A stretch of DNA of 64,000 bases, taken from positions 47,824 to 111,823 of the forward strand of contig JAJBTU010000024.1 of NCBI GenBank assembly GCA_020860715.1, written 5' to 3'. The position numbers were made by a program, and so were the translations under genes. The notes under the pieces are model-generated. The model ran no database searches. It worked only from the letters and a program-made list of their open reading frames with translations, and was not told where the DNA came from. This document shows positions 7,683 to 28,860 of the stretch, in pieces; position 1 is the stretch's first letter, and each line of letters begins with the position of its first letter. The DNA comes from Clostridiales bacterium. Its GTDB lineage: Bacteria > Bacillota > Clostridia > Lachnospirales > Lachnospiraceae.

Positions 7683-9051
7683 ATGACATGACATGCCCGG
7701 CCCCGAATGTCCGGATGTTCATCGGGTACACGTTTTCTTTGCCCACAAACTGTGCAATATAATTCACATAATCCGCGGTTTCTTCTTTCGGGAGTACGCA
7801 TGCGATTACGCCCGCAAATCCGCCGCCATGCACACGGCACACACCCCGGCCGGTGCGGTTCAGGAACAACCTCGTGAGCGCGAGAGTCAGCGTCACCTTC
7901 TGCTCCTTCGGACTGCGGATGCAGTAGCAGTTCTGCAGCCACTCCCAGGAGGAGCGCCCGGACTCGTCAATCGCCTTTAAAAGCGCCGCCTCGTCGCGGT
8001 CCAACGCCGCCTGATAGGCAGCGTCCACGCGCCTGTTTTCTTCAAAAAAGTGCAGGGCGCGTAAGACGGCGCGGTCATTATGAATCTTCGCATTGGAAGC
8101 AGAAGCCGCCCCTTCGTCTTTTGTATCAGCTGCCAGCTTTGCAAGCAGCGCCTCCTCGTCCGTCTCGCACAACAGCTTCACGCCGAGGGATTTTGCAGCG
8201 TCTTTCATCTCCAGAGGCACGCTGGAATATTCGTCGCTCAAGTCCGCGTGACCCTTGCCGGTATTGACGATCACGAGGTCGTAGCCCAGCTGCGAGAAAG
8301 AAAAATCTACCTGTTTGCAGATATCCTCGTCTGTGATGGCGTTCTGCGCCGAATCCGCTGCCCCGGTATTTTCATCTGATGCGCCCGGCTGCGGCGCTGT
8401 CGCAATCTTTGAAAAATCCAGCAGGATCGTGCCGCCGACCGCGCAGGCCATCTGATCCATCAGCCCCGACGCCTTGTCCCAGAAATGGTTCTCCGCGTAC
8501 TGGCCGATGCGCGCGTAATCAATATAGCGCATCTTTCCATCATTGAAAAAGTAGTTGATGATCGCGCACACGAGCATCTCAAACGATGCCGACGAACTCA
8601 CGCCCGCCGCCGAGATCACCTCGGTCGACACATAGGCGTTGAACCCGGACACCGTAAATCCCATCTTCCGCGCAGCCATCGCCATGCCCGCCACCAGAGA
8701 AAATGTGCCCTTATTCTTCGGCACCCGCTCCAGCCGGGTCAGATCCACGATGATCTTGTCGCGGTAGCCCTCGCTCACGATCGTGATCACATCCGTTCCG
8801 TTCGGATACGCCGCGCCGATCGTGTCCAGGCTGATGCTGCCCGCCAGGATCTTTCCGCCGTTGTGATCCGTATGGTTCCCGACAATCTCCGTCCGCCCCG
8901 GAGATGTGAAGAATGACATCTCACAATCAGAAGTTTCCTTATCGGGAGCAAAATATCTTTTGTAATTCTCCGCCAACGACTGATAGCGCGCCATACTGCG
9001 CTCCGTCTCGCCGTAAATGCGTTCCAGTGTCTGAAGCTCCGGTAATTTCAT
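7681..9051 (-). CDS. galK: galactokinase
   Basis: A 456-residue GHMP-family kinase that phosphorylates galactose to galactose-1-phosphate using ATP, the entry step of the Leloir pathway. The galactokinase signature GRTEIVGNHTDHNGG is near residues 52-66, the glycine/serine phosphate loop GVSSSASFE is in the middle, and a C-terminal GHMP motif (GGGFAG) is present. GAAGGAGGAACAGG precedes the ATG. It is longer than E. coli GalK (about 382), as is common in clostridia, and carries an Asn/Ala-rich insertion near residue 240. No galT or galE is visible in the window, so the pathway partners lie elsewhere. Confidence 0.93.
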   Translation of the reverse strand: MKLPELQTLERIYGETERSMARYQSLAENYKRYFAPDKETSDCEMSFFTSPGRTEIVGNHTDHNGGKILAGSISLDTIGAAYPNGTDVITIVSEGYRDKIIVDLTRLERVPKNKGTFSLVAGMAMAARKMGFTVSGFNAYVSTEVISAAGVSSSASFEMLVCAIINYFFNDGKMRYIDYARIGQYAENHFWDKASGLMDQMACAVGGTILLDFSKIATAPQPGASDENTGAADSAQNAITDEDICKQVDFSFSQLGYDLVIVNTGKGHADLSDEYSSVPLEMKDAAKSLGVKLLCETDEEALLAKLAADTKDEGAASASNAKIHNDRAVLRALHFFEENRRVDAAYQAALDRDEAALLKAIDESGRSSWEWLQNCYCIRSPKEQKVTLTLALTRLFLNRTGRGVCRVHGGGFAGVIACVLPKEETADYVNYIAQFVGKENVYPMNIRTFGAGHVMS

Positions 9052-9109
9052 CCTGTTCCTCCTTCTATATATAATGATACACAGATTGCCGGCATGACAA
9101 TTTGTGGTT

Positions 9110-9544
9110 TTACACCCTTTTATTGTTTACGCTAACCCATCGTCTAAAGCCAATGGGATTGCGGTCGACCTGTTTCAATTCCTCGTACATTTCTATTGCT
9201 TCCATTATCTCATCTCGCATTGCAACCGGGTCTTCCCCATATCTGCTATTGGCTTCCCAACCGGTAATGTCATTAGAAGCAAGGATCAATCGTTCCGGTA
9301 CAGTGAAGCCACAATTTTCCTGCACAAGATCAATCAATGTCGGAATACTATGTGTTCGGTAGGTTCTGGATGTTTCGTCCAAACCTCCAATAGAAAACAA
9401 TGCATATTTTAAAGCCTTTTCGATTCCCTGCTGCACATGATAAGCAGCAATATCATCAATAAGCTCATCGTTATCAGGGTTCCCTGTCGGACTGATCAAC
9501 AATCTGGCATTGTAGACATCCCTGTCCGCTCTATCGAGCAACAT
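9110..9544 (-). CDS. HEPN domain toxin of an MNT/HEPN pair
   Basis: About 144 residues, helical, with the HEPN motif RTYRTH (R-x4-H) near the middle. HEPN proteins in such pairs are ribonuclease-like toxins or substrates for AMP transfer by the MNT partner. I chose ATG 9544, with AGGGGGTTGAGG upstream, over the TTG at 9568 used in the ORF track. The chosen start leaves a 14-nt overlap with the MNT gene. The gene order MNT then HEPN is typical. Not obviously linked to galK beyond position. Confidence 0.83.
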   Translation of the reverse strand: MLLDRADRDVYNARLLISPTGNPDNDELIDDIAAYHVQQGIEKALKYALFSIGGLDETSRTYRTHSIPTLIDLVQENCGFTVPERLILASNDITGWEANSRYGEDPVAMRDEIMEAIEMYEELKQVDRNPIGFRRWVSVNNKRV

Positions 9545-9848
9545 AGACCTCAACCCCCTTTGTATCAATTTCCTTTTTCAGCTTTTCACCCAGCCTGTGA
9601 TAAAACAGGACATCACAATTATAATTGCATGCTTTATTAAAATCACATACCGGACGGAATAAGCGTTTATCACGTGTACTGCACGAAACATCCAGACAGA
9701 TGTCAACATCGCTCTCCTCGCAACAGTCATCTGTGACCGCACTGCCAAATATGATTAGCCGTCTGATTACATCGGACATCCGCGCAATCTGAATTGTTTT
9801 TTCTACTTCTGAACGTTTCACGGTGTTGATTCTGGCAAGATTATCCAT
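9531..9848 (-). CDS. MNT nucleotidyltransferase antitoxin
   Basis: A 105-residue minimal nucleotidyltransferase with the GSAVTDDCCEESDVDICLDV signature (GS-x10-SDxD), giving the metal-binding Asp pair. In MNT/HEPN modules this enzyme neutralises the HEPN toxin, by AMPylation in studied cases. GGAGGAGGGG lies seven bases before the ATG. A promoter with TATAAT lies about 80 nt upstream. The pair forms a compact two-gene module between galK and the ABC-exporter cluster, the usual accessory position for such systems. Confidence 0.87.
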   Translation of the reverse strand: MDNLARINTVKRSEVEKTIQIARMSDVIRRLIIFGSAVTDDCCEESDVDICLDVSCSTRDKRLFRPVCDFNKACNYNCDVLFYHRLGEKLKKEIDTKGVEVYVAR

Positions 9849-9925
9849 GCAGTCCCCTCCTCCCGAAATAATAAATGACTTATCGGTTCAGCATACGCAA
9901 GCGCACTTTTTTTCTGATAGGTCAC

Positions 9926-9955
9926 ATTATAGCATACAGCATGCTTCATTCGCAA
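9926..9955 (-). promoter_or_regulatory. promoter of the MNT/HEPN module
   Basis: Minus-strand TTGCGA (9955-9950) and TATAAT (9931-9926) are separated by 18 nt, about 80 nt before the MNT start. It also argues against the 62-residue ORF at 9818-10006 being a gene. Confidence 0.65.
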
Positions 9956-10058
9956 CCAGTGAATCCTTTTCTGGTCAGGCATTTTTGTAACACATTTTTG
10001 TAACAAGAATGGCTAAATTATTGGAAGCTGATCAGGCTGCCCGGGCCGCTTCCTTTTT

Positions 10059-11531
10059 TTATCCCAAAACAGACACTGCCATCAGCGCCGCACACCCCAG
10101 CACAAACACGATCATGCCGGCATTCCCATAGGCAGTCCGGAATTTTGCACCTTTCGGCAGCTCCAGCTCTGCCTGCGCGAAGGACACGCGCCGCCAGCTG
10201 CGGCAGAGCAACACCAGCCCCACGATTGCGGATACCACAAGAACGATTACATAGCCGCCATACAATGCCAGCTGCATCAGCAACGGTTCGATGGCTTCAA
10301 ACGAAAGCGTTTCCAGATTTTCAAGGTTTTCCAGTGCAGACAAATCCAGCATGTTAAGCAGCGCAGAAGGCACGATGCTTCCCAGAAAATTGATACCCAT
10401 GTGCAGTCCCGCCGAATAACGCAGCTTTCCAGTCTTCAGATAGATGTACCCAAACAGCAGCCCCAGCGCGAACGCATAGAAGAACTGCGTAAAGTTCCCG
10501 TGAAAAAGCCCGAACATCAGAGCCGAGGTGACGACTGCCAACTTTTCCCCGTAACAGCTCATCCGGTCGATCAGCTGCCTGCGGAACACATATTCCTCAA
10601 TCAGCGGCGCCAGAATCACCATAAAGAGAATTTTCAGCACCAACGAATCCGCCAGCGCGTAAGTCGTGATGGCCGCTTCCGCCGATGTGCTGGTCAGCGC
10701 GCTGAGCGCAGCGGCGACAAGGTTGCCAAGGATGTTGCCCGCGTACATCAGGAAAATGGCAATAAACGCGGCGCGCACAAGTTGACCTGGGTTCATGGTA
10801 TGTTTTTCCCTGTTGCTCCCGCCTGGTTTTTTATAGCTTTCTGTGTCGTTGCTTTCATCTGCAGCGACATTCTCATTTGCAAGGATGTTTTCATCGTTAA
10901 TATCATCAGAGCAGGCAGGCACGCGGCGGAAGATCAGCAGCCCCACCGGCACCGCGGCCACATACAGGGGTGCAAAGGTATAAACCCACAATCCCCACGA
11001 GGTTGAGACGCCTTCCGGAAAGAGCATCGCAGCGGCAATCTGCAGGACAGCCGCGATCACCAGTATCGCGAAGCAGCCGAAACCGAGGGTGGAAAATGTT
11101 TTGCGGGCACGGCAACGGATTTCTTCCGAAACAGCATCCGCGCGCGTCCCATCGCGGTCATTCCTCAACCGCGCGGGTTGATCCCGAGGATCTACAAACA
11201 GCGGCGTCAGCGCCAGAAAGACCGCGCCAAGTCCGATATTGACCACCGCCGCAGCCACCGCGGCTGTGACAACATGATCAAAGACAACTCCCACCGCAAT
11301 GATTGCCACATCCGGCAGCAGCCCGAAATAAATGAACATGACCTGAACAACCTGTTTTACCAGCTTCCCGGCGGATACCGGCACGGACAGGTTAATAAAC
11401 GCGCCCGTAGTCGTTCCGTAAAAATCAATCGAGAGAACAAACGGAATCCACGCCAGTATGTAAAGCGGATTGACCCGGAAAACCGCCTCCGTGAGGATCA
11501 GCGCCGGAATCAGATCAAGCAGGCAGTTCAC
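10059..11531 (-). CDS. C-terminal part of ABC exporter permease fused to CPBP membrane protease
   Basis: 490 residues, two parts. The first about 115 residues are membrane sequence that continues the exporter permease encoded just upstream in another frame. From about residue 140 a CPBP (Abi/CAAX) intramembrane protease follows: the EEYVFRRQLID motif (EExxxR), then FGLFHGN and HMGINF with the expected histidines, and about six helices. Both parts read in one frame without a stop. The start shown is an internal GTG overlapping the upstream ORF, an artefact of the frame break. CPBP proteins next to peptide exporters often act in peptide processing or self-immunity. Whether the fusion works as one protein is unknown. 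Confidence 0.75.
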   Translation of the reverse strand: MNCLLDLIPALILTEAVFRVNPLYILAWIPFVLSIDFYGTTTGAFINLSVPVSAGKLVKQVVQVMFIYFGLLPDVAIIAVGVVFDHVVTAAVAAAVVNIGLGAVFLALTPLFVDPRDQPARLRNDRDGTRADAVSEEIRCRARKTFSTLGFGCFAILVIAAVLQIAAAMLFPEGVSTSWGLWVYTFAPLYVAAVPVGLLIFRRVPACSDDINDENILANENVAADESNDTESYKKPGGSNREKHTMNPGQLVRAAFIAIFLMYAGNILGNLVAAALSALTSTSAEAAITTYALADSLVLKILFMVILAPLIEEYVFRRQLIDRMSCYGEKLAVVTSALMFGLFHGNFTQFFYAFALGLLFGYIYLKTGKLRYSAGLHMGINFLGSIVPSALLNMLDLSALENLENLETLSFEAIEPLLMQLALYGGYVIVLVVSAIVGLVLLCRSWRRVSFAQAELELPKGAKFRTAYGNAGMIVFVLGCAALMAVSVLG

Positions 11532-12915
11532 CGTTCCTCCCAGAACTGACCAGAGCAGCTTTTTTCTCCGTGCTCTCCGGTATCATCCGGAAGAAATCTT
11601 TGGAGGTGTCCTCCTCCAGCGGATTCCCCAGTGTGCGCCAGAACGCGAGCGCGGACAGCGTGAGAACGACCGGCAGAAACCGGAATCCATCCGTCTCCGT
11701 GCCGTCCTGCAGATACCTGCACAGCGCCGTCACGCCTGCCGCCGCAGCCAGGTAAAAGTCTGCGGTCTTTGTAAAAATCCCCAGATGCGCGAACCGGAAG
11801 CGGTTGTACAGGCTGCGGAAGAAAAAGACATTCGCCCCGCTTCCATAGCGCATGCCGTCCCGGCGAATCTTTTCGCTCCGGTCCTTTTTGCGCTTTACAA
11901 ATCCGGTGCTTTTCTCCGCCTGCCGCACTTCCAGCAGCTCGGCAGTCTCTTCGGATTTCGCCATCGCGTCCTCGTAAAAGTCCGCTTTGATACTCCATAT
12001 CGCGAAAATAAGCGCCGCACTTCCAATCAGGAGTGCAGCCAGACACAGCAGCGCGCCCTGCGTTTCCCCGGCAATCGCAAACATACAGAGTCCCTTCAGC
12101 CATCCCCAGAATGGAATCCAGCGTGTCCATTTATGATTAAAAAATGCCGCTGCCGCGGAAAAATGCTCAGAGCCATACGGTCTGCTGCTTAAGAAAAACG
12201 CGGCCGCCACCACGAGCACCAGAGCGCAGACCCCTTTCCGCAAATACGGCTTCCTGCCGGTATGCGTCGCCGCCAGCGTATAAAACAGTACCTGGATCAG
12301 TTTGCCGATCACCAGCGTAAAAATCCAGACCAGAAGGATCGCGGCCGCGCCCCGGATGCCAAGCCCGAGGTTCAGCATCAGATTTGGGAGCTGAAGCATC
12401 ACATAAATACTGGAAATCACAAGCGCGCCAATCTGTGTCATCAGCCGGAAGAGCAGCACGGACTGCGGCTTCATCGGCGACGCAAACAGCAGGTTCACGT
12501 CCGCGGGCAGAAAAATGCTGCTGCCGGTTTTATCCGCGCAGATCATCTCAAACAGGAATACCGCCAGAATGATGCCGCCAACGATCAGTTCAATCAGGTC
12601 AGAAGTCGCGTCTTTTCCGTTTACTTCAAAGACAAAAACCTCATCTTCATTTTCCACAGACATATCTCCCGTATCTGAGTCTGCAGAACCCGCGCCGATG
12701 CTATATTCATCGGATTCTGCCGTCATTTCCGCTGTAATCTCTGCTATTTCCTCTGTCTCATCTTCCGCAACCTCACTTAAAATGCCCGCGCCAAGCCCGA
12801 TCAGCCCGCCAAGCAGTGCGCAGACAAGGAGAAAAATCAGCACCCAGGTCTTAAGCAGCTTGCGGATCTGGTTCACAAAGGAGTGCAGCGCATAATAGCC
12901 ATAAAGTCTCATCAC
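11515..12915 (-). CDS. ABC exporter permease, N-terminal part, frameshifted at an A6 tract
   Basis: 466 residues, membrane protein with many helices, resembling the putative ABC exporter family found beside YtrB-type ATPases. An extracellular acidic loop lies after the first helix. The ATG overlaps the ATPase stop by 4 nt. The frame ends about 16 codons after a run of six A at 11560-11565. Deleting one A makes the frame run on as EKKLLWSVLGGTVNCLLDL into the downstream ORF, giving about 575 residues of permease before the CPBP part. Possible explanations are an assembly error, a true disabling mutation or a switchable tract. Confidence 0.8.
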   Translation of the reverse strand: MMRLYGYYALHSFVNQIRKLLKTWVLIFLLVCALLGGLIGLGAGILSEVAEDETEEIAEITAEMTAESDEYSIGAGSADSDTGDMSVENEDEVFVFEVNGKDATSDLIELIVGGIILAVFLFEMICADKTGSSIFLPADVNLLFASPMKPQSVLLFRLMTQIGALVISSIYVMLQLPNLMLNLGLGIRGAAAILLVWIFTLVIGKLIQVLFYTLAATHTGRKPYLRKGVCALVLVVAAAFFLSSRPYGSEHFSAAAAFFNHKWTRWIPFWGWLKGLCMFAIAGETQGALLCLAALLIGSAALIFAIWSIKADFYEDAMAKSEETAELLEVRQAEKSTGFVKRKKDRSEKIRRDGMRYGSGANVFFFRSLYNRFRFAHLGIFTKTADFYLAAAAGVTALCRYLQDGTETDGFRFLPVVLTLSALAFWRTLGNPLEEDTSKDFFRMIPESTEKKAALVSSGRNGELPA

Positions 12916-13631
12916 GCATTGTCCTCCGTCCTATCAAAAAACAGCTGCTCCAGACTTCTTCCGTCCGCTGCCAGTTCATCTCTTGTCAGATTCGCCTGAA
13001 TCCTTCCCTCCTTCATAATAATGGTCCGGTCCCAGAGCATGTCCACGCTGTCAATCATATGCGTGCTGACCAGGATCGTCTTCCCTTCCTGCCGCATCTC
13101 CTCAATCAAACTCTTTAATTCCTTGATCGCGTGCGGATCCAGTCCGATCATCGGCTCGTCCAGCAGCAGCACCTGCGGTTCCGGCAGAAGGCCCAGGCAG
13201 ATATTCAGTTTCTGCTGCATTCCCTTCGAGAGCTCGTCGCCAAACTTTTTTCGCTTGTCGGTCAGTTCAAACCGTTCAAACAGTTCTTCGATCCTCGACT
13301 GATAAGCGTCACGCCCCACGCTGCCGCCAAGTTTATACGCCCGCGCGATAAATTCCATATGTTCAGACACTGTCAGGTTCGGATACAGCGAGGGCATCTC
13401 CGGTATGTAGCCGAGCAGGCGGCGTGCATCCGGCGTTTTGTTGGAAAAATCCCTTACCGTTATCTCGCCCTCGTATTTCAGGAAACCGATCATGGCCTTG
13501 ATGATCGTACTTTTCCCGGCGCCGTTCGGCCCGAGCAAAACGGTCACCGTCCCCGGATCCAGATGAAAGTTCAGATCATCGCAGGCCAGCACCTTGCCGT
13601 ATTTCTTTGTCACATGTGATACGTTCAACAT
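12912..13631 (-). CDS. ABC transporter ATP-binding protein
   Basis: 239 residues with Walker A GPNGAGKST, signature LSKGMQQK, Walker B LLLDEPMIGLDP and the switch His in STHMID. It is the energising subunit for the exporter permease whose start overlaps its stop (ATGA). AAGGAG lies upstream of the ATG. Together with the second, broken ATPase gene and three membrane proteins it forms the GntR-controlled export cluster. The substrate is not evident; antimicrobial peptide or lipid efflux is typical for such YtrA-linked systems. Confidence 0.92.
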   Translation of the reverse strand: MLNVSHVTKKYGKVLACDDLNFHLDPGTVTVLLGPNGAGKSTIIKAMIGFLKYEGEITVRDFSNKTPDARRLLGYIPEMPSLYPNLTVSEHMEFIARAYKLGGSVGRDAYQSRIEELFERFELTDKRKKFGDELSKGMQQKLNICLGLLPEPQVLLLDEPMIGLDPHAIKELKSLIEEMRQEGKTILVSTHMIDSVDMLWDRTIIMKEGRIQANLTRDELAADGRSLEQLFFDRTEDNA

Positions 13632-13676
13632 TTTTCTCTTCTCCTTTATTTTTATCCCCGTCTGGCAATTTTCTTT

Positions 13677-14402
13677 TTAATTCACCTGCTGCGTCCGCAT
13701 CAATCTCCAGGCTCCTCCGAGCGCCAGAAGAAACGCCAGCACTCCCACGACCGGCCACATGCCGGAAGGAACCGCCATAATTCCTTTCGCGATTCCCTGA
13801 AATACCGCCTGCCCCTCCGTTTCCGACTCCAATATGGCATCTGTCACCCGTGGCAATCCAAGCCAGAACATCATCCAGAGGATGATAAATACAACCCTCA
13901 CTGTCTGCCCGAACCGGTTGCACAGCGCTCCAAAAAGTGCGGCCGCCGCAGGCAGACCCAGCACAGCCGCGATCCCGTACCGTAACAGAATCGGAAAGAT
14001 GGCAAATTCCGGTTCCTCCATCGGATACAGCCGGACATTCAGTGCGTCCTCCGCAGCGCCCAGCACCAGCAAAATCACCATTCCGAATGCACTCAAAACC
14101 AGATGCTTTAAAAGCACGGACACAAAAAATTCCTTTCTTGTACAGCCCATGGATATTTGCGTGTGAAACTGCGACGTATAATCCTCCCCGAAATTCGCAA
14201 ACAAAAATACCGCGCCAGCAAAAGCCGCAAGGATAGTCGCAAGCGGAAACGTCCCCTCTCCTTCATCAATTGCAAACCTCATCATAATAGCGAGAAGGAG
14301 CATCCCCGCCAGAAAGAAACCCAGTTCGAGCAGCAAAACTGCCAGGCATTTGTTTTCATTGATCTGAAACTGATTTTTGATTGCTCTTTTCATCGTAATC
14401 AT
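13677..14402 (-). CDS. ABC-2-like membrane protein of the GntR cluster
   Basis: 241 residues from ATG 14402 (MITMKRAIKNQFQ), with GGAGAGG upstream. The longer track start overlaps the preceding gene and is rejected. About six hydrophobic helices are visible and no catalytic motif. The N-terminal amphipathic start and the SMGCTRKEFF segment before a helix are typical of ABC-2 type permeases. It lies 45 nt before the ATPase gene and so is probably a transporter subunit. I cannot name the family. Confidence 0.72.
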   Translation of the reverse strand: MITMKRAIKNQFQINENKCLAVLLLELGFFLAGMLLLAIMMRFAIDEGEGTFPLATILAAFAGAVFLFANFGEDYTSQFHTQISMGCTRKEFFVSVLLKHLVLSAFGMVILLVLGAAEDALNVRLYPMEEPEFAIFPILLRYGIAAVLGLPAAAALFGALCNRFGQTVRVVFIILWMMFWLGLPRVTDAILESETEGQAVFQGIAKGIMAVPSGMWPVVGVLAFLLALGGAWRLMRTQQVN

Positions 14403-14422
14403 ATTGAAATCCTCTCCGTAAT

Positions 14423-14453
14423 CCCGCCCCGCGCGCAGCGCATCAAAATGGGC
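14423..14453 (-). repeat. palindromic element, half copy (A1)
   Basis: CCCGCCCCGCGCGCAGCGCATCAAAATGGGC matches the first half of the in-gene elements at 18859 and 19288, including the inner GCGC-GCA-GCGC hairpin. It fills the gap between two genes of the exporter cluster. Confidence 0.7.
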
Positions 14454-14455
14454 TT

Positions 14456-15208
14456 TTATCTGCGCACTTCTATTTTTCGCAGTCCTCTCAGGCTCACCGC
14501 TCCGGCAGCCGCGTACAGTACAAGCCCGATCACCGGCAGCACGGGAGAGTGTACCCATTTCAGAATGTCCCGATTAAAAATCGACGTTTCGCCCTCGAGT
14601 CCCGCCATCAGGCCGCAGAAAAAGGCAAAGCCCCCGGCAAACACGGCATTGAAAATCATTCCGAGCGTTCTGTTTCGTATGGATACCATGCCAAAAAAGA
14701 TTCCGATCAGAACCGCAAATGTCTCAGCGGCAAAGATCAGCGGCAGCCATTCCATCCAAAATGTTCCCATCCCAAACATGAAAAAAAGCCCGGCGATTCC
14801 AAACACAACCAGTATCACCGCACCCTCGCAGAGCCACATGCTCAAAGCAGTCTGCCGTCTCGTGGCGTTCATGGGAATCATCGTCGTAATGATATTGTTA
14901 AAAAGGACTGTCGGGCAAATCCATACGATTACGCCGCCCGCAAGCAGCAGGTAAGGCGGAAAATCTTCCAGCAGCGCTGCGGTCATCTTCCATGACAGCG
15001 GCCAGCCACCGCCCGTTTCTCCTCTCACAATCGGCACGAACAGATCCCAGATTACCGTGACGAGCAGCGCGTATCCAATCATCTGCAGGCAGAGTCCGCC
15101 AAAATAGCAGACTATGCGCAGTGTGCGGGACGCTCCCACTATTCCCTTTTTTGTCGTATCCTTCCTTCTGTTTCGTTGCTCCGCCCCCAAATAATTCTCT
15201 GCATTCAT
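14456..15208 (-). CDS. membrane protein of the GntR-ABC cluster
   Basis: 250 residues. A charged N-terminus of about 28 residues is followed by about six transmembrane helices. The MIPMNATRRQTALSMW segment between helices is typical of ABC-2 permeases, where bacteriocin and bacitracin exporters carry a similar cytosolic coupling loop. GAGAGAGC lies before the ATG. It is placed between the frameshifted ATPase and the smaller permease, so it is most likely a permease subunit for that ATPase. No specific family recognised. Confidence 0.72.
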   Translation of the reverse strand: MNAENYLGAEQRNRRKDTTKKGIVGASRTLRIVCYFGGLCLQMIGYALLVTVIWDLFVPIVRGETGGGWPLSWKMTAALLEDFPPYLLLAGGVIVWICPTVLFNNIITTMIPMNATRRQTALSMWLCEGAVILVVFGIAGLFFMFGMGTFWMEWLPLIFAAETFAVLIGIFFGMVSIRNRTLGMIFNAVFAGGFAFFCGLMAGLEGETSIFNRDILKWVHSPVLPVIGLVLYAAAGAVSLRGLRKIEVRR

Positions 15209-15245
15209 TTGCTCTCTCCCTCACTCACACACCTGTGTTCTCCGC

Positions 15246-15272
15246 TCGTAACTGTTCAGTACCTTCACAGTT
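15246..15272. repeat. 27-bp dispersed repeat, copy 1
   Basis: TCGTAACTGTTCAGTACCTTCACAGTT recurs at 17656-17682 with one mismatch. AACTGT/ACAGTT arms can pair around an 11-nt loop. Lies in the gap between the ATPase and membrane-protein genes. Confidence 0.75.
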
Positions 15273-15280
15273 GCCTCCGC

Positions 15281-15814
15281 TCAATGCTCCTCGCCGCACA
15301 GCGCCACGAACAGCTTCTGCAGGCTCACTTTCTGAACCGTCACATCAGCATTACCCAGCCGATCCGTCTGCTCATTTTCTCCCGCATCGTTCGGCTTCGG
15401 CTCTAAAATCGTCACGCTCTTGCTGCGGCCCAGCCGTTCTGCATGGTGCTGTGTATATCCCGCGGTCGCGCGGTCCACCTCATCCTCCCGTCCGCTCACA
15501 CACCAGGCCCGCTCCAGCAGTTCCTCCAGGTTCTCTTTTAAAAGGATTTTCCCTTCATCCAGCAGGATCACTTCCTCAAAAATGTCCGCCGCCTCCTCGA
15601 TAATATGAGTCGAGATCACAAACGTCCGGCCGCTCTCGGTAAATTCCTCCAGCAGAAGCTGATAAAACTTTTCCCTCGCGACCACATCCAGTCCCGCGAC
15701 CGGCTCATCCAGAAACGTGAACTCCGCCCCGCTCGCGAGCGCCACAACGATTGTCACCATCGAAAGCATACCTTTGGACAGCTTGCTGATCTTTTTTCTT
15801 CGTATCCAGCCCAA
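15281..15814 (-). CDS. ABC ATPase, C-terminal fragment (frameshifted)
   Basis: This frame holds the signature LSKGM, Walker B FTFLDEPVAGLDV, the switch ISTHIIEE and a C-terminal domain of about 90 residues. It continues the N-terminal fragment (15705-16280) if one A is removed from the A6 tract at 15792-15797, which gives DTKKKISKLSKGM. The ORF start at 15814 lies upstream of the break and is only formal. Alone, this part lacks the P-loop and could not be an active ATPase. Repaired, the protein is about 330 residues, a normal size for a YtrB-type ATPase. Confidence 0.8.
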   Translation of the reverse strand: MGWIRRKKISKLSKGMLSMVTIVVALASGAEFTFLDEPVAGLDVVAREKFYQLLLEEFTESGRTFVISTHIIEEAADIFEEVILLDEGKILLKENLEELLERAWCVSGREDEVDRATAGYTQHHAERLGRSKSVTILEPKPNDAGENEQTDRLGNADVTVQKVSLQKLFVALCGEEH

Positions 15815-16280
15815 ACTCCGCTACAAGACGGTCCGCCATCTTCTGATCCCAGTGCGGAAGAAACAGCGACGCGATCTTCAGGTATTCTTTCACTTTCATC
15901 GTATTCGCGCTGTTTCCGATCATCTGATTCAGCTCACGCGAAAAACACAGATGCGAGAGCGCCTTCGGATTCTCCCAGACCGACTCACGAACAACCGCCG
16001 AATGCGGTCTCATTTTTACGATATTCGATCCGTTCCCGGCACCGCTGCTCTTTCCCTGCCGCTCATCCGGCTTCGCATCGTCAGGAGAAATCTCCACCGT
16101 CACTGTCCCCTCCGACGCCGGATTCTGCGAGCTTAAAATAGACAAAAGCGTCGTCTTCCCGGCACCATTGCGCCCGATTAGACCATAGATCTTGCCCTGC
16201 TCCAGTTCCAGATCAATACCGTGAAGCACCTCTTTCTCCCCGTATCGCTTCACGATCCCGGATGCCACAATTTTGCTCAT
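15705..16280 (-). CDS. ABC ATPase, N-terminal fragment (frameshifted)
   Basis: Starts at ATG 16280 (MSKIVASGIVKRYGEKEV) with GGAGGAG eight bases upstream; the ATG at 16307 is less likely. It contains Walker A GRNGAGKTT and a Q-loop region, and after the A6 tract at 15792-15797 it reads 29 off-frame residues to a stop. An insert rich in Asp, Lys and Gly sits after the Walker A helix. It follows the GntR gene closely, as in ytrA-ytrB operons. The break is of the same kind as that in the exporter permease 4 kb away. Confidence 0.8.
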   Translation of the reverse strand: MSKIVASGIVKRYGEKEVLHGIDLELEQGKIYGLIGRNGAGKTTLLSILSSQNPASEGTVTVEISPDDAKPDERQGKSSGAGNGSNIVKMRPHSAVVRESVWENPKALSHLCFSRELNQMIGNSANTMKVKEYLKIASLFLPHWDQKMADRLVAEFGLDTKKKDQQAVQRYAFDGDNRCGARERGGVHVSG

Positions 16281-16309
16281 ATCATTTTCTCCTCCATATT
16301 CCCCCATAT

Positions 16310-16714
16310 TTATCCCGCTGCTTTATTTTCTTTCGCATAAGGATTTCCCTCGGCGCCGTCTTCCCGAATCATCGCGATCAGCTCTTCTCTGGTGATTCCG
16401 AGACTTTCCGCCTCCGCCATCAGACGTTTCACATAGTCATCATAGAAGTTTTTCTTCCGCTTCTCCACGATCTTCTTTTTCGCTCCCGACTGGACGAACA
16501 TCCCGATTCCCCTTTTTTTGTAAAGGATGCCTTCATCCACAAGCAGGTTCACACCTTTCGCCGCCGTCGCCGGATTGATGGCATACGCCTTCGCCAGTTC
16601 ATTCGTACTCGGCACCCGCTCCTCCTCCAGAAGAATGTCCCGCAGGATGTCGTTTTCTATCATTTCTTTAATCTGAATGTAAATGGATTTTTCCTGTGAA
16701 AGGATCTCATTCAT
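16310..16714 (-). CDS. GntR family (YtrA-like) transcriptional regulator
   Basis: 134 residues. The N-terminal winged helix (IYIQIKEMI ... VPSTNELAKAYAINPATAAKGVNLLVDEGIL) is classic GntR; the short helical C-terminus is of YtrA type with no effector domain. Such proteins repress linked ABC-transporter operons and respond to cell-wall antibiotics in the studied cases. The gene heads the exporter cluster, and a promoter overlapped by a perfect inverted repeat lies about 100 nt upstream, so autorepression is likely. Confidence 0.92.
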   Translation of the reverse strand: MNEILSQEKSIYIQIKEMIENDILRDILLEEERVPSTNELAKAYAINPATAAKGVNLLVDEGILYKKRGIGMFVQSGAKKKIVEKRKKNFYDDYVKRLMAEAESLGITREELIAMIREDGAEGNPYAKENKAAG

Positions 16715-16733
16715 TTACCCACTTCCTTTCATA

Positions 16734-16768
16734 GCCCCGCCCTGCGCGCAGCGCATTTGCATAAGCAG
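16734..16768 (-). repeat. palindromic element, half copy (A2)
   Basis: GCCCCGCCCTGCGCGCAGCGCATTTGCAT in the leader of the GntR gene matches the first half of the in-gene copies, with the TGCGC-GCA-GCGCA inner hairpin intact. The second outer-stem arm is lost. Confidence 0.7.
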
Positions 16769-16794
16769 AGCGTTTTCACACGCCACTGTTCGTT

Positions 16795-16844
16795 GGTTCA
16801 TTACTTGTGTAATGAACCATATCACCAAATATACTTTCTGTCAA
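16795..16844 (-). promoter_or_regulatory. GntR-cluster promoter with inverted-repeat operator
   Basis: Minus-strand TTGACA (16844-16839), a 17-nt spacer and TATGGT (16821-16816) form a promoter. The perfect inverted repeat GGTTCATTAC-N4-GTAATGAACC (16795-16818) overlaps the -10 box and the start point. It is well placed for autorepression by the GntR protein encoded just downstream. Confidence 0.83.
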
Positions 16845-16888
16845 GAAGTTTTTACTCGTTTTCTATTGCGGTCTTGCACACTGTAATC

Positions 16889-16998
16889 GAGCAGGAGGCA
16901 ACTTGTTGGCTTCTGCTCGCCGCGCGGTTGCTGCGTGCCAGTGGCACGCGTTTAGCAACGACCGGAGCGGTAGCGGAGACGCGTGCAGCTTTAGCTGC
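16889..16998. other. hairpin-rich intergenic segment
   Basis: Three hairpins follow each other: GAGCAG.../...CTGCTC (16889-16918), GTTGCT.GCGTGCC-AGT-GGCACGC....AGCAAC (16927-16959), and GCAGCT/AGCTGC (16985-16998). No ORF here is convincing. The segment lies between the GntR promoter and the terminator of the toxin-antitoxin unit. Could be a mobile palindromic element or a structured RNA. Confidence 0.55.
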
Positions 16999-17024
16999 TA
17001 AATTCCTTACGCGCCCCTGCGCAT

Positions 17025-26880: not shown

Positions 26881-27663
26881 TCACTCCATATCCGCCGCAT
26901 ACAGCGCCGCGCCCAGCGCTCCGCAGAGCTGCGCTTTTTCACTGATGATCAGCTTCGTGCCGAGACGCTCCTCGAGTGTCTTTACCAGACCCCGGTTCTG
27001 CGCCACGCCGCCTGTCATCATATAGGCTTCCTCGCCTCCGACGCGCTTCACGAGCGACGCCGTCTTTGCCGCGACCGCCTTATTCAGGCCATGAACGATA
27101 TCGTCCGGCTTTTTGTTCTGCGCGATCAGCGAGACGACCTCCGACTCTGCGAACACCGTGCACATGCTGGAAATCGTGATGTCCTCATCGTAGGATAATC
27201 CGGCCTTTCCGATCTCGTCCAGCGACATTTCCATCGTCCGCGCCATCATCTCCAGAAAACGCCCGGTACCCGCCGCACACTTATCGTTCATGACAAAATT
27301 CTTCACGGAGCCGTCCGAATCCAGCCGGATGACCTTGCTGTCCTGCCCGCCGATGTCGACGACTGTCCGCACCGAAGGATCCAGAAAATGCGCGCCTCTC
27401 GCGTGACAGGTGATCTCCGTAATGCTCTTATCCCCGACCTGAATTGCCGTGCGCCCGTACCCTGTGGTAACTACCGCGTCGATATCCTCCCGGTCCAGAT
27501 GCGCCTGTTCCAGTGCCTGCTCCAGTGCCCGTTCTGCGCCGATTGCAGCGCCTGCCCCGGTCGGCAGGATGATGCCGGCCACGATTTCTTTTTCCTTATT
27601 TAAAATCACCACGTCCGTACTCGTCGATCCGCTGTCGATTCCCGCAAAATATCCTTTTCCCAT
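26881..27663 (-). CDS. 2-hydroxyacyl-CoA dehydratase activase (HgdC/BadF type)
   Basis: 260 residues of the ASKHA ATPase fold: GIDSGSTSTDVVIL phosphate loop, TTGYGR, VDIGGQDSKVI, and NDKCAAGTGRFLE, whose Cys with that of SSMCTVFAESEV ligates the bridging [4Fe-4S] cluster of the dimer. It uses ATP to push one electron into a dehydratase, enabling radical removal of water from a 2-hydroxyacyl-CoA. The two dehydratase-like subunits lie directly upstream in the same orientation. Confidence 0.94.
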   Translation of the reverse strand: MGKGYFAGIDSGSTSTDVVILNKEKEIVAGIILPTGAGAAIGAERALEQALEQAHLDREDIDAVVTTGYGRTAIQVGDKSITEITCHARGAHFLDPSVRTVVDIGGQDSKVIRLDSDGSVKNFVMNDKCAAGTGRFLEMMARTMEMSLDEIGKAGLSYDEDITISSMCTVFAESEVVSLIAQNKKPDDIVHGLNKAVAAKTASLVKRVGGEEAYMMTGGVAQNRGLVKTLEERLGTKLIISEKAQLCGALGAALYAADME

Positions 27664-27718
27664 ATGCGCTTCCTTTCCCTGCCGTTCCGGCGTGATGCCG
27701 CCCTCACCTGCTTTTTCA

Positions 27719-28702
27719 TCATTCCCGGATCCGCCGGAATTGCCTGATATCGTACCCCCCGGAATTCAGTTCCAGACTTTCCGCGAACGCTTCCAGCCTC
27801 GTCAGCAGCTGCCCGCTGCTCTGCACGGTATAATCCGACTCGATTTTCAGAATCGGCACATCCGTGTGTGATTTGATGTCCGCGTATTCAAAGCTGTAAA
27901 AATCACAGAATTTTACAGTATGATAAATGATGCCTTTTAACGACGGATCCTGATACAGCTGTTTGCGTCCGGCCGTATCCAGCATCCGCATGCAGGGAAG
28001 CTGCCCTAAGAGTTCGCCCGCGTACCAGTCCATAAGTGCGTCGAAATCAAAATCCGTTTCGCTGTCATGTGTCTGTACCTTCTGAGAACCGGTACCCTGC
28101 CTCTCTGCTTCCGGATACGTCCATGTCACAGACCGGTTATTCACGCAGGTCTCATTTACGACCGGAAGCGGCATACTCTTTTGGGTCATCTCATACAGCT
28201 CGTCTCCCATACGCGCGCCAAGCACCGCCAGATGCGTCACCTGCGTGCGCTCTTTCGGGCAAAACGCGCTGCGAAAGGCGCTGTAATCAAACTTGCGCCC
28301 TTTGTATTCGCCGTATTTCTGCGCCAGATCCTTCAGCTGAGCCGCGACCCGCCCGCGGCTGCAGACAGAATCAGACAGGGATGCGTCCGCATTTCTTTCA
28401 GGAAATGCGGACCTTGTATGCAGCATATCCAGCATATACAGGAAATCCAGCTGTCCGCTGTCCTCCAACAGATCATATACGCTGCGGATCGTATCGCAGC
28501 AGTTCACCAGCACCAGTTCCTTTACCTGCCCGGCAAGCACTGCTTCCAGCACGGATTTGCCGAAGCCGCAGATATTCGGATGCGCGATCTGGTCCGCGTA
28601 ATCAAAGCCTTCCGGCATCATATTCAGATTTTCACATTCGCCGCCAAAAGCTGTCAAAAGCTCCAGCGGTGTATATTTACAGACATAATACGTTTTTTCC
28701 AA
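27719..28702 (-). CDS. 2-hydroxyacyl-CoA dehydratase-family subunit (short)
   Basis: 327 residues from TTG 28702 (LEKTYYVCKYTPLELLTAFG), with GGAAGGGA upstream. The track's GTG at 28864 adds 54 unlike residues but makes a GTGA overlap with the previous stop, so it is not excluded. Cysteines in VCKYTP, NICGFGK, VNCCDTIR and ETCVNN are suited to [4Fe-4S] binding as in HgdB/FldC-like proteins. It should pair with the 443-residue subunit and be activated by the activase. The substrate cannot be told; hydroxyglutaryl-, lactoyl- or phenyllactoyl-CoA enzymes share this fold, as do double-cubane reductases. Confidence 0.85.
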   Translation of the reverse strand: MEKTYYVCKYTPLELLTAFGGECENLNMMPEGFDYADQIAHPNICGFGKSVLEAVLAGQVKELVLVNCCDTIRSVYDLLEDSGQLDFLYMLDMLHTRSAFPERNADASLSDSVCSRGRVAAQLKDLAQKYGEYKGRKFDYSAFRSAFCPKERTQVTHLAVLGARMGDELYEMTQKSMPLPVVNETCVNNRSVTWTYPEAERQGTGSQKVQTHDSETDFDFDALMDWYAGELLGQLPCMRMLDTAGRKQLYQDPSLKGIIYHTVKFCDFYSFEYADIKSHTDVPILKIESDYTVQSSGQLLTRLEAFAESLELNSGGYDIRQFRRIRE

Positions 28703-28860
28703 GTTCGATTCCCTTCCTGCCTTCGTTTCTCTCATTCTATGAATCGTTCTGTCTGCGGCATATTCCGCGTGCAGATCCCTGATTTTGCTCCCGGCGTTTC
28801 CGGGGTCCGAAGCAGATTCACGGCTCTGCGCTGCCTGCCTTCTTCCGGATCCGCGGAGTT

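Follow-up and report, generated by a model that had tools for sequence, protein, structure and literature searches.

Is an exporter permease that breaks off at a run of six adenines, with a CPBP-type intramembrane protease in the frame behind it, a gene beside another gene or part of one interrupted protein, and what would that protein do if intact? The question arises from the 64,000-nucleotide stretch of DNA analysed here (the window), where the genes concerned lie on the minus strand (Table 1). The permease frame may start at GTG 12915 or ATG 12912 and has its stop at 11515-11517, while the CPBP frame, with its stop at 10059-10061, is open up to position 11582 (minus strand); the two overlap around the A6 tract. 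Removal of one A joins both frames into 951 stop-free codons, in agreement with the initial annotation, which had predicted a fused product of about 950 residues. Since the split falls within a single Pfam domain, PF16962, this is one broken gene and not two tidy ones.

Table 1. Features of the exporter-protease locus and its cluster in the window
Feature	Coordinates	Strand	Remarks
First frame: exporter permease, PF16962 positions 1-404 (3e-74)	11515..12915	-	Pfam scan
A6 tract, reading-frame change	11560..11565	-	T6 on + strand; relatives A5
Second open frame: PF16962 positions 415-524, linker, CPBP protease	10059..11582	-	Pfam scan
CPBP (PF02517 Rce1-like) domain, 3.6e-20	10383..10643	-	Pfam scan
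CPBP motif EExxxR = EEYVFR	10581..10598	-	
CPBP motif FxxxH = FGLFHGN	10494..10514	-	
CPBP motif HxxxN = HMGIN	10389..10403	-	
ATPase2, cognate ABC ATPase	12912..13631	-	Stop overlaps exporter start
PermB, membrane protein of second transporter	13677..14402	-	Conserved in close relatives
PermA, membrane protein of second transporter	14456..15208	-	Same cluster
ATPase1, second ABC ATPase	15281..16307	-	Frame also shifts, at A6 15792-15797; a single ORF in relatives
GntR-like regulator at cluster head	16310..16714	-	Named from sequence and conserved position

Among the 47 genomes of the genus that were compared, six close relatives have a counterpart of the 361-base stretch surrounding the tract, matching it at 86-91%, with 360 bases in four, 356 for 357 in one and 363 in one. 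The difference in length from the window is one base modulo three in all six, the 363-base match amounting to one base fewer than the window's 361 plus a codon. In a DNA alignment of eight fused relatives the six close ones have A5 at the tract, read in frame as GAG AAA AAG CTG, and the other two have GCC AAG at this position, also in frame. The permease is thus broken where the initial annotation had placed the break, by a base that its same-genus relatives lack. The extra A is found in the window's genome alone, and the break is therefore not part of the system.

Full-length fused homologues, for which the initial annotation had proposed a search, do exist, and its proposal that permease and protease form one protein holds. 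An uninterrupted ORF of 884-1062 codons carrying PF16962 and then CPBP was found in 11 other genomes: the close relatives L002-L007, L009 and L010 (both titled Oscillospiraceae), and L094, L096 and L097. These homologues show 41-97% identity, and 41% to 90% identity to L002 over the whole protein. Both domains were matched in all 11, and in the window itself PF16962 scores 250.9 bits in the first frame (Pfam curated cut-off 29.7) and PF02517 72.5 bits (curated cut-off 22.4). All three CPBP motifs, EExxxR, FxxxH and HxxxN, are present in the window; across 11 sequences both glutamates, both histidines and the asparagine never vary, and the motif arginine is found in 10 of the 11. Comparison of the relatives' loci found no close relative with two genes and a stop codon between them.

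Of 299 genomes from the same family, 46 have a PF16962 match above the cut-off; almost all of these are stand-alone, and the long form occurs, besides the window's genome, only in G117 and G063. A tree built from 61 permease domains places the fused forms in one subclade and requires three changes, most simply one gain and two losses; outside that subclade the PF16962 permease is a stand-alone gene. The losses would be those of L098 and L099, which lie within the fused subclade and seem to have lost the protease, arguing that the exporter can function without it. Other loci carry the protease half by itself, as a complete protein of about 330-460 codons, with no PF16962 gene near it in the flanks that were read. 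L008 retains the protease without the exporter: at L008:5875-7242 the exporter domain is absent and the start of the ATPase runs in frame into the protease half, giving a 456-codon ORF that is either a deletion or a chimeric assembly. Given the conservation of the fused ORFs and this simplest history, it is almost certain that the fused form exists as a real, conserved protein, and the same sequence comparisons indicate that it is old.

The cause of the break in the window's genome is a separate matter. Against L002, dN/dS is 0.085 in the permease before the tract and 0.011 in the protease core, values that are low on either side of the tract and similar to those between intact relatives. Because dN/dS does not rise past the tract, any inactivation is very recent, and we reject a long-standing pseudogene. 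We regard it as highly improbable that the split is a functional arrangement in this species, with frameshifting, or reinitiation at GTG 11531, yielding a short exporter and a protease. The tract is A-rich and a GGAGG stands four bases ahead of this GTG, but the GTG itself is found in only two of the eight aligned relatives, all of which read in frame without the extra A, and the split cuts the permease domain itself. A programmed frameshift is judged unlikely in particular because the A6 is not conserved and the shift required would be +1, whereas A-rich slippery sites usually give -1.

Either the change is very recent or the assembly is wrong at this point, and the two stand at nearly even odds. 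A second A6 tract, at 15792-15797 (minus-strand sequence GAAAAAAG), splits ATPase1, which is a single ORF in close relatives; in the ~36 kb of comparable coding sequence on the window's contig there are two homopolymer breaks, both of them in the exporter cluster. Two breaks within one cluster fit a recent real inactivation, and a base-calling or assembly error would also account for a single base gained twice in motifs of one kind. The completeness rating of the window's genome, 100%, speaks weakly against many sequence errors. A further frame change, at 27759-27764, lies in a divergent linker and involves no homopolymer; the two ORFs that it separates (26884-28711) correspond to one 630-codon ORF in G013, with a 2-hydroxyacyl-CoA dehydratase-like part and an activase-like part, both named from sequence. 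In another genus (G272), a stand-alone ABC_export gene at L064:1259-2832 also consists of two overlapping frames.

A close homologue of ATPase2 lies directly upstream of the exporter, whether fused or stand-alone, in every locus for which the flank was read. With the catalytic motifs kept, purifying selection evident and the ATPase gene adjacent, both halves of the protein look functional. No substrate gene was found in the cluster, and an Rfam scan of positions 9000-17000 gave no match. Just downstream of the cluster, at 9110-9848, a HEPN protein overlaps a small nucleotidyltransferase (Polbeta); the pair is toxin-antitoxin-like, of the HEPN-MNT type, and the nucleotidyltransferase has a weak match to the PADLOC PDC-S09 models.

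A model of the permease domain built from 58 sequences (pLDDT 79) gave as its top match among solved structures a mycobacterial ABC efflux pump of the one-chain type (probability 0.98, E 0.07), with the CcmB-type fold ranking lower. This is weak evidence for a type V exporter whose two membrane halves lie in the same chain, an arrangement described for EcsB. For the full-length protein the model was of low quality (pLDDT 61.5) and had no significant match, and searching the sequences of solved structures with a profile of the fused form found nothing.

The intact product would be one large membrane protein, in which a CPBP intramembrane protease follows an ABC exporter permease that probably holds its two membrane halves in a single chain, and which would draw its energy from the ATPase encoded just upstream. 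The protease domain would cut a hydrophobic peptide inserted in the membrane, such as a pheromone precursor, a bacteriocin precursor or a leader or signal-peptide remnant, after which the permease would use ATP to expel the cut product. We give a little less than an even chance to such a processing exporter, whose substrate is cut in the membrane and then expelled. We infer cleavage, substrate and the coupling of the two steps as most likely by analogy with three systems: in S. aureus the intramembrane protease Eep and the ABC exporter EcsAB act on the same peptides (PMC7157817), MroQ cuts the membrane-bound peptide precursor AgrD (PMC10482373), and SunT is an exporter with a fused peptidase (PMC11466899). 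Evidence on the other side is that the search of the cluster turned up no substrate gene, that L098 and L099 seem to have an exporter that lost its protease, and that L008 has a protease lacking the exporter. A more far-reaching and rather doubtful version is a hard-wired cut-and-export machine, in which membrane-cut peptides would pass straight to an ATP-driven exit within one chain and provide an undescribed peptide signalling or bacteriocin route in gut-type Clostridia.

The transporter might instead control the protease, substrate binding or ATP turnover opening and closing the CPBP site, which would cut other membrane proteins such as regulators, so that the export step serves as sensor or gate. 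We think this fairly unlikely, yet it is a serious rival because EcsAB of B. subtilis has an effect on the intramembrane protease RasP, and the respective mutants share phenotypes (PMC7478892). RasP, however, belongs to a different protease family, and no anti-sigma factor or comparable target was noticed in the cluster. The protease half occurs elsewhere as a full protein in its own right, and therefore could retain targets of its own. The combination of a GntR-like regulator with an ABC transporter is common in peptide-stress operons, and here too a second ABC transporter shares the cluster with a GntR-like regulator, in keeping with a peptide-resistance or immunity pump in which the exporter would remove membrane-active peptides and the CPBP domain would degrade or bind them. 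CPBP proteins do serve as bacteriocin immunity proteins, and SkkI requires its proteolytic activity to do so (PMC10482373), but the nearby genes included none recognised as encoding a bacteriocin or a modification enzyme, and the majority of the PF16962 exporter family has no protease; we consider such a pump unlikely. Other CPBP proteins, AbxI and SpdC, act without proteolysis and without catalytic residues (PMC10482373), which counts against a processing exporter and would allow the CPBP domain to serve the exporter as a scaffold or structural element and not as a working protease. Against this, the whole fused set keeps the catalytic residues, and the protease core is the most constrained stretch measured; a purely structural role appears very unlikely.

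The processing exporter, our preferred reading, bears on how membrane-cut peptides leave the cell, an open question in some systems, among them AgrD and MroQ, for which the export route is not known (PMC10482373). If a natural protein carries protease and exporter in a single chain, with its active site conserved and its ATPase partner known, the question could be tested in that one protein; it would also offer a starting point for working out what the PF16962 exporters do, which are found in many Lachnospiraceae-type genomes.

Several known systems resemble the fused protein in part. Stand-alone ABC_export proteins of PF16962 (mostly 520-640 codons) have the same permease family and the same adjacent upstream ATPase but no protease domain; within the same bacterial family, most members are of this stand-alone type. 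In NCBIfam NF041647 (ABC transporter permease subunit/CPBP) an ABC permease is likewise followed by CPBP in one chain; the fused protein scores 48 bits against that model's cut-off of 435, through its CPBP part only, which places it outside the family and its permease part therefore in another. MroQ (NF046050) shares CPBP homology, at about 38 bits against a cut-off of 270, but is a stand-alone protein. Eep is a site-2 type metalloprotease, not a CPBP protein. In Eep and EcsAB of S. aureus, as in the PptAB systems of streptococci and enterococci, protease and exporter share peptides but are encoded by separate genes (PMC7157817). EcsB has likewise been described with both membrane domains in one chain (PMC11466899). 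Any likeness to EcsB lies in these two membrane halves and goes no further; the permease part has no EcsB family match, Pfam scans giving only PF16962. Transporters of the SunT type carry an N-terminal cytoplasmic C39 peptidase on a type IV exporter, whereas the fused PF16962 protein has a membrane protease at its C-terminus. Neither a C39 peptidase nor an in-chain ATPase was found in the fused members, which contain only PF16962 and PF02517 and have their ATPase as a separate gene. The SunT-type peptidase-containing ABC transporters nevertheless join a peptidase to an exporter, as here (PMC11466899). A limited search found no literature on PF16962 or on a CPBP-ABC fusion, which says little. 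Protease-exporter fusions are already known, as peptidase-containing ABC transporters and as NF041647, and the PF16962-CPBP form is a new variation on these.
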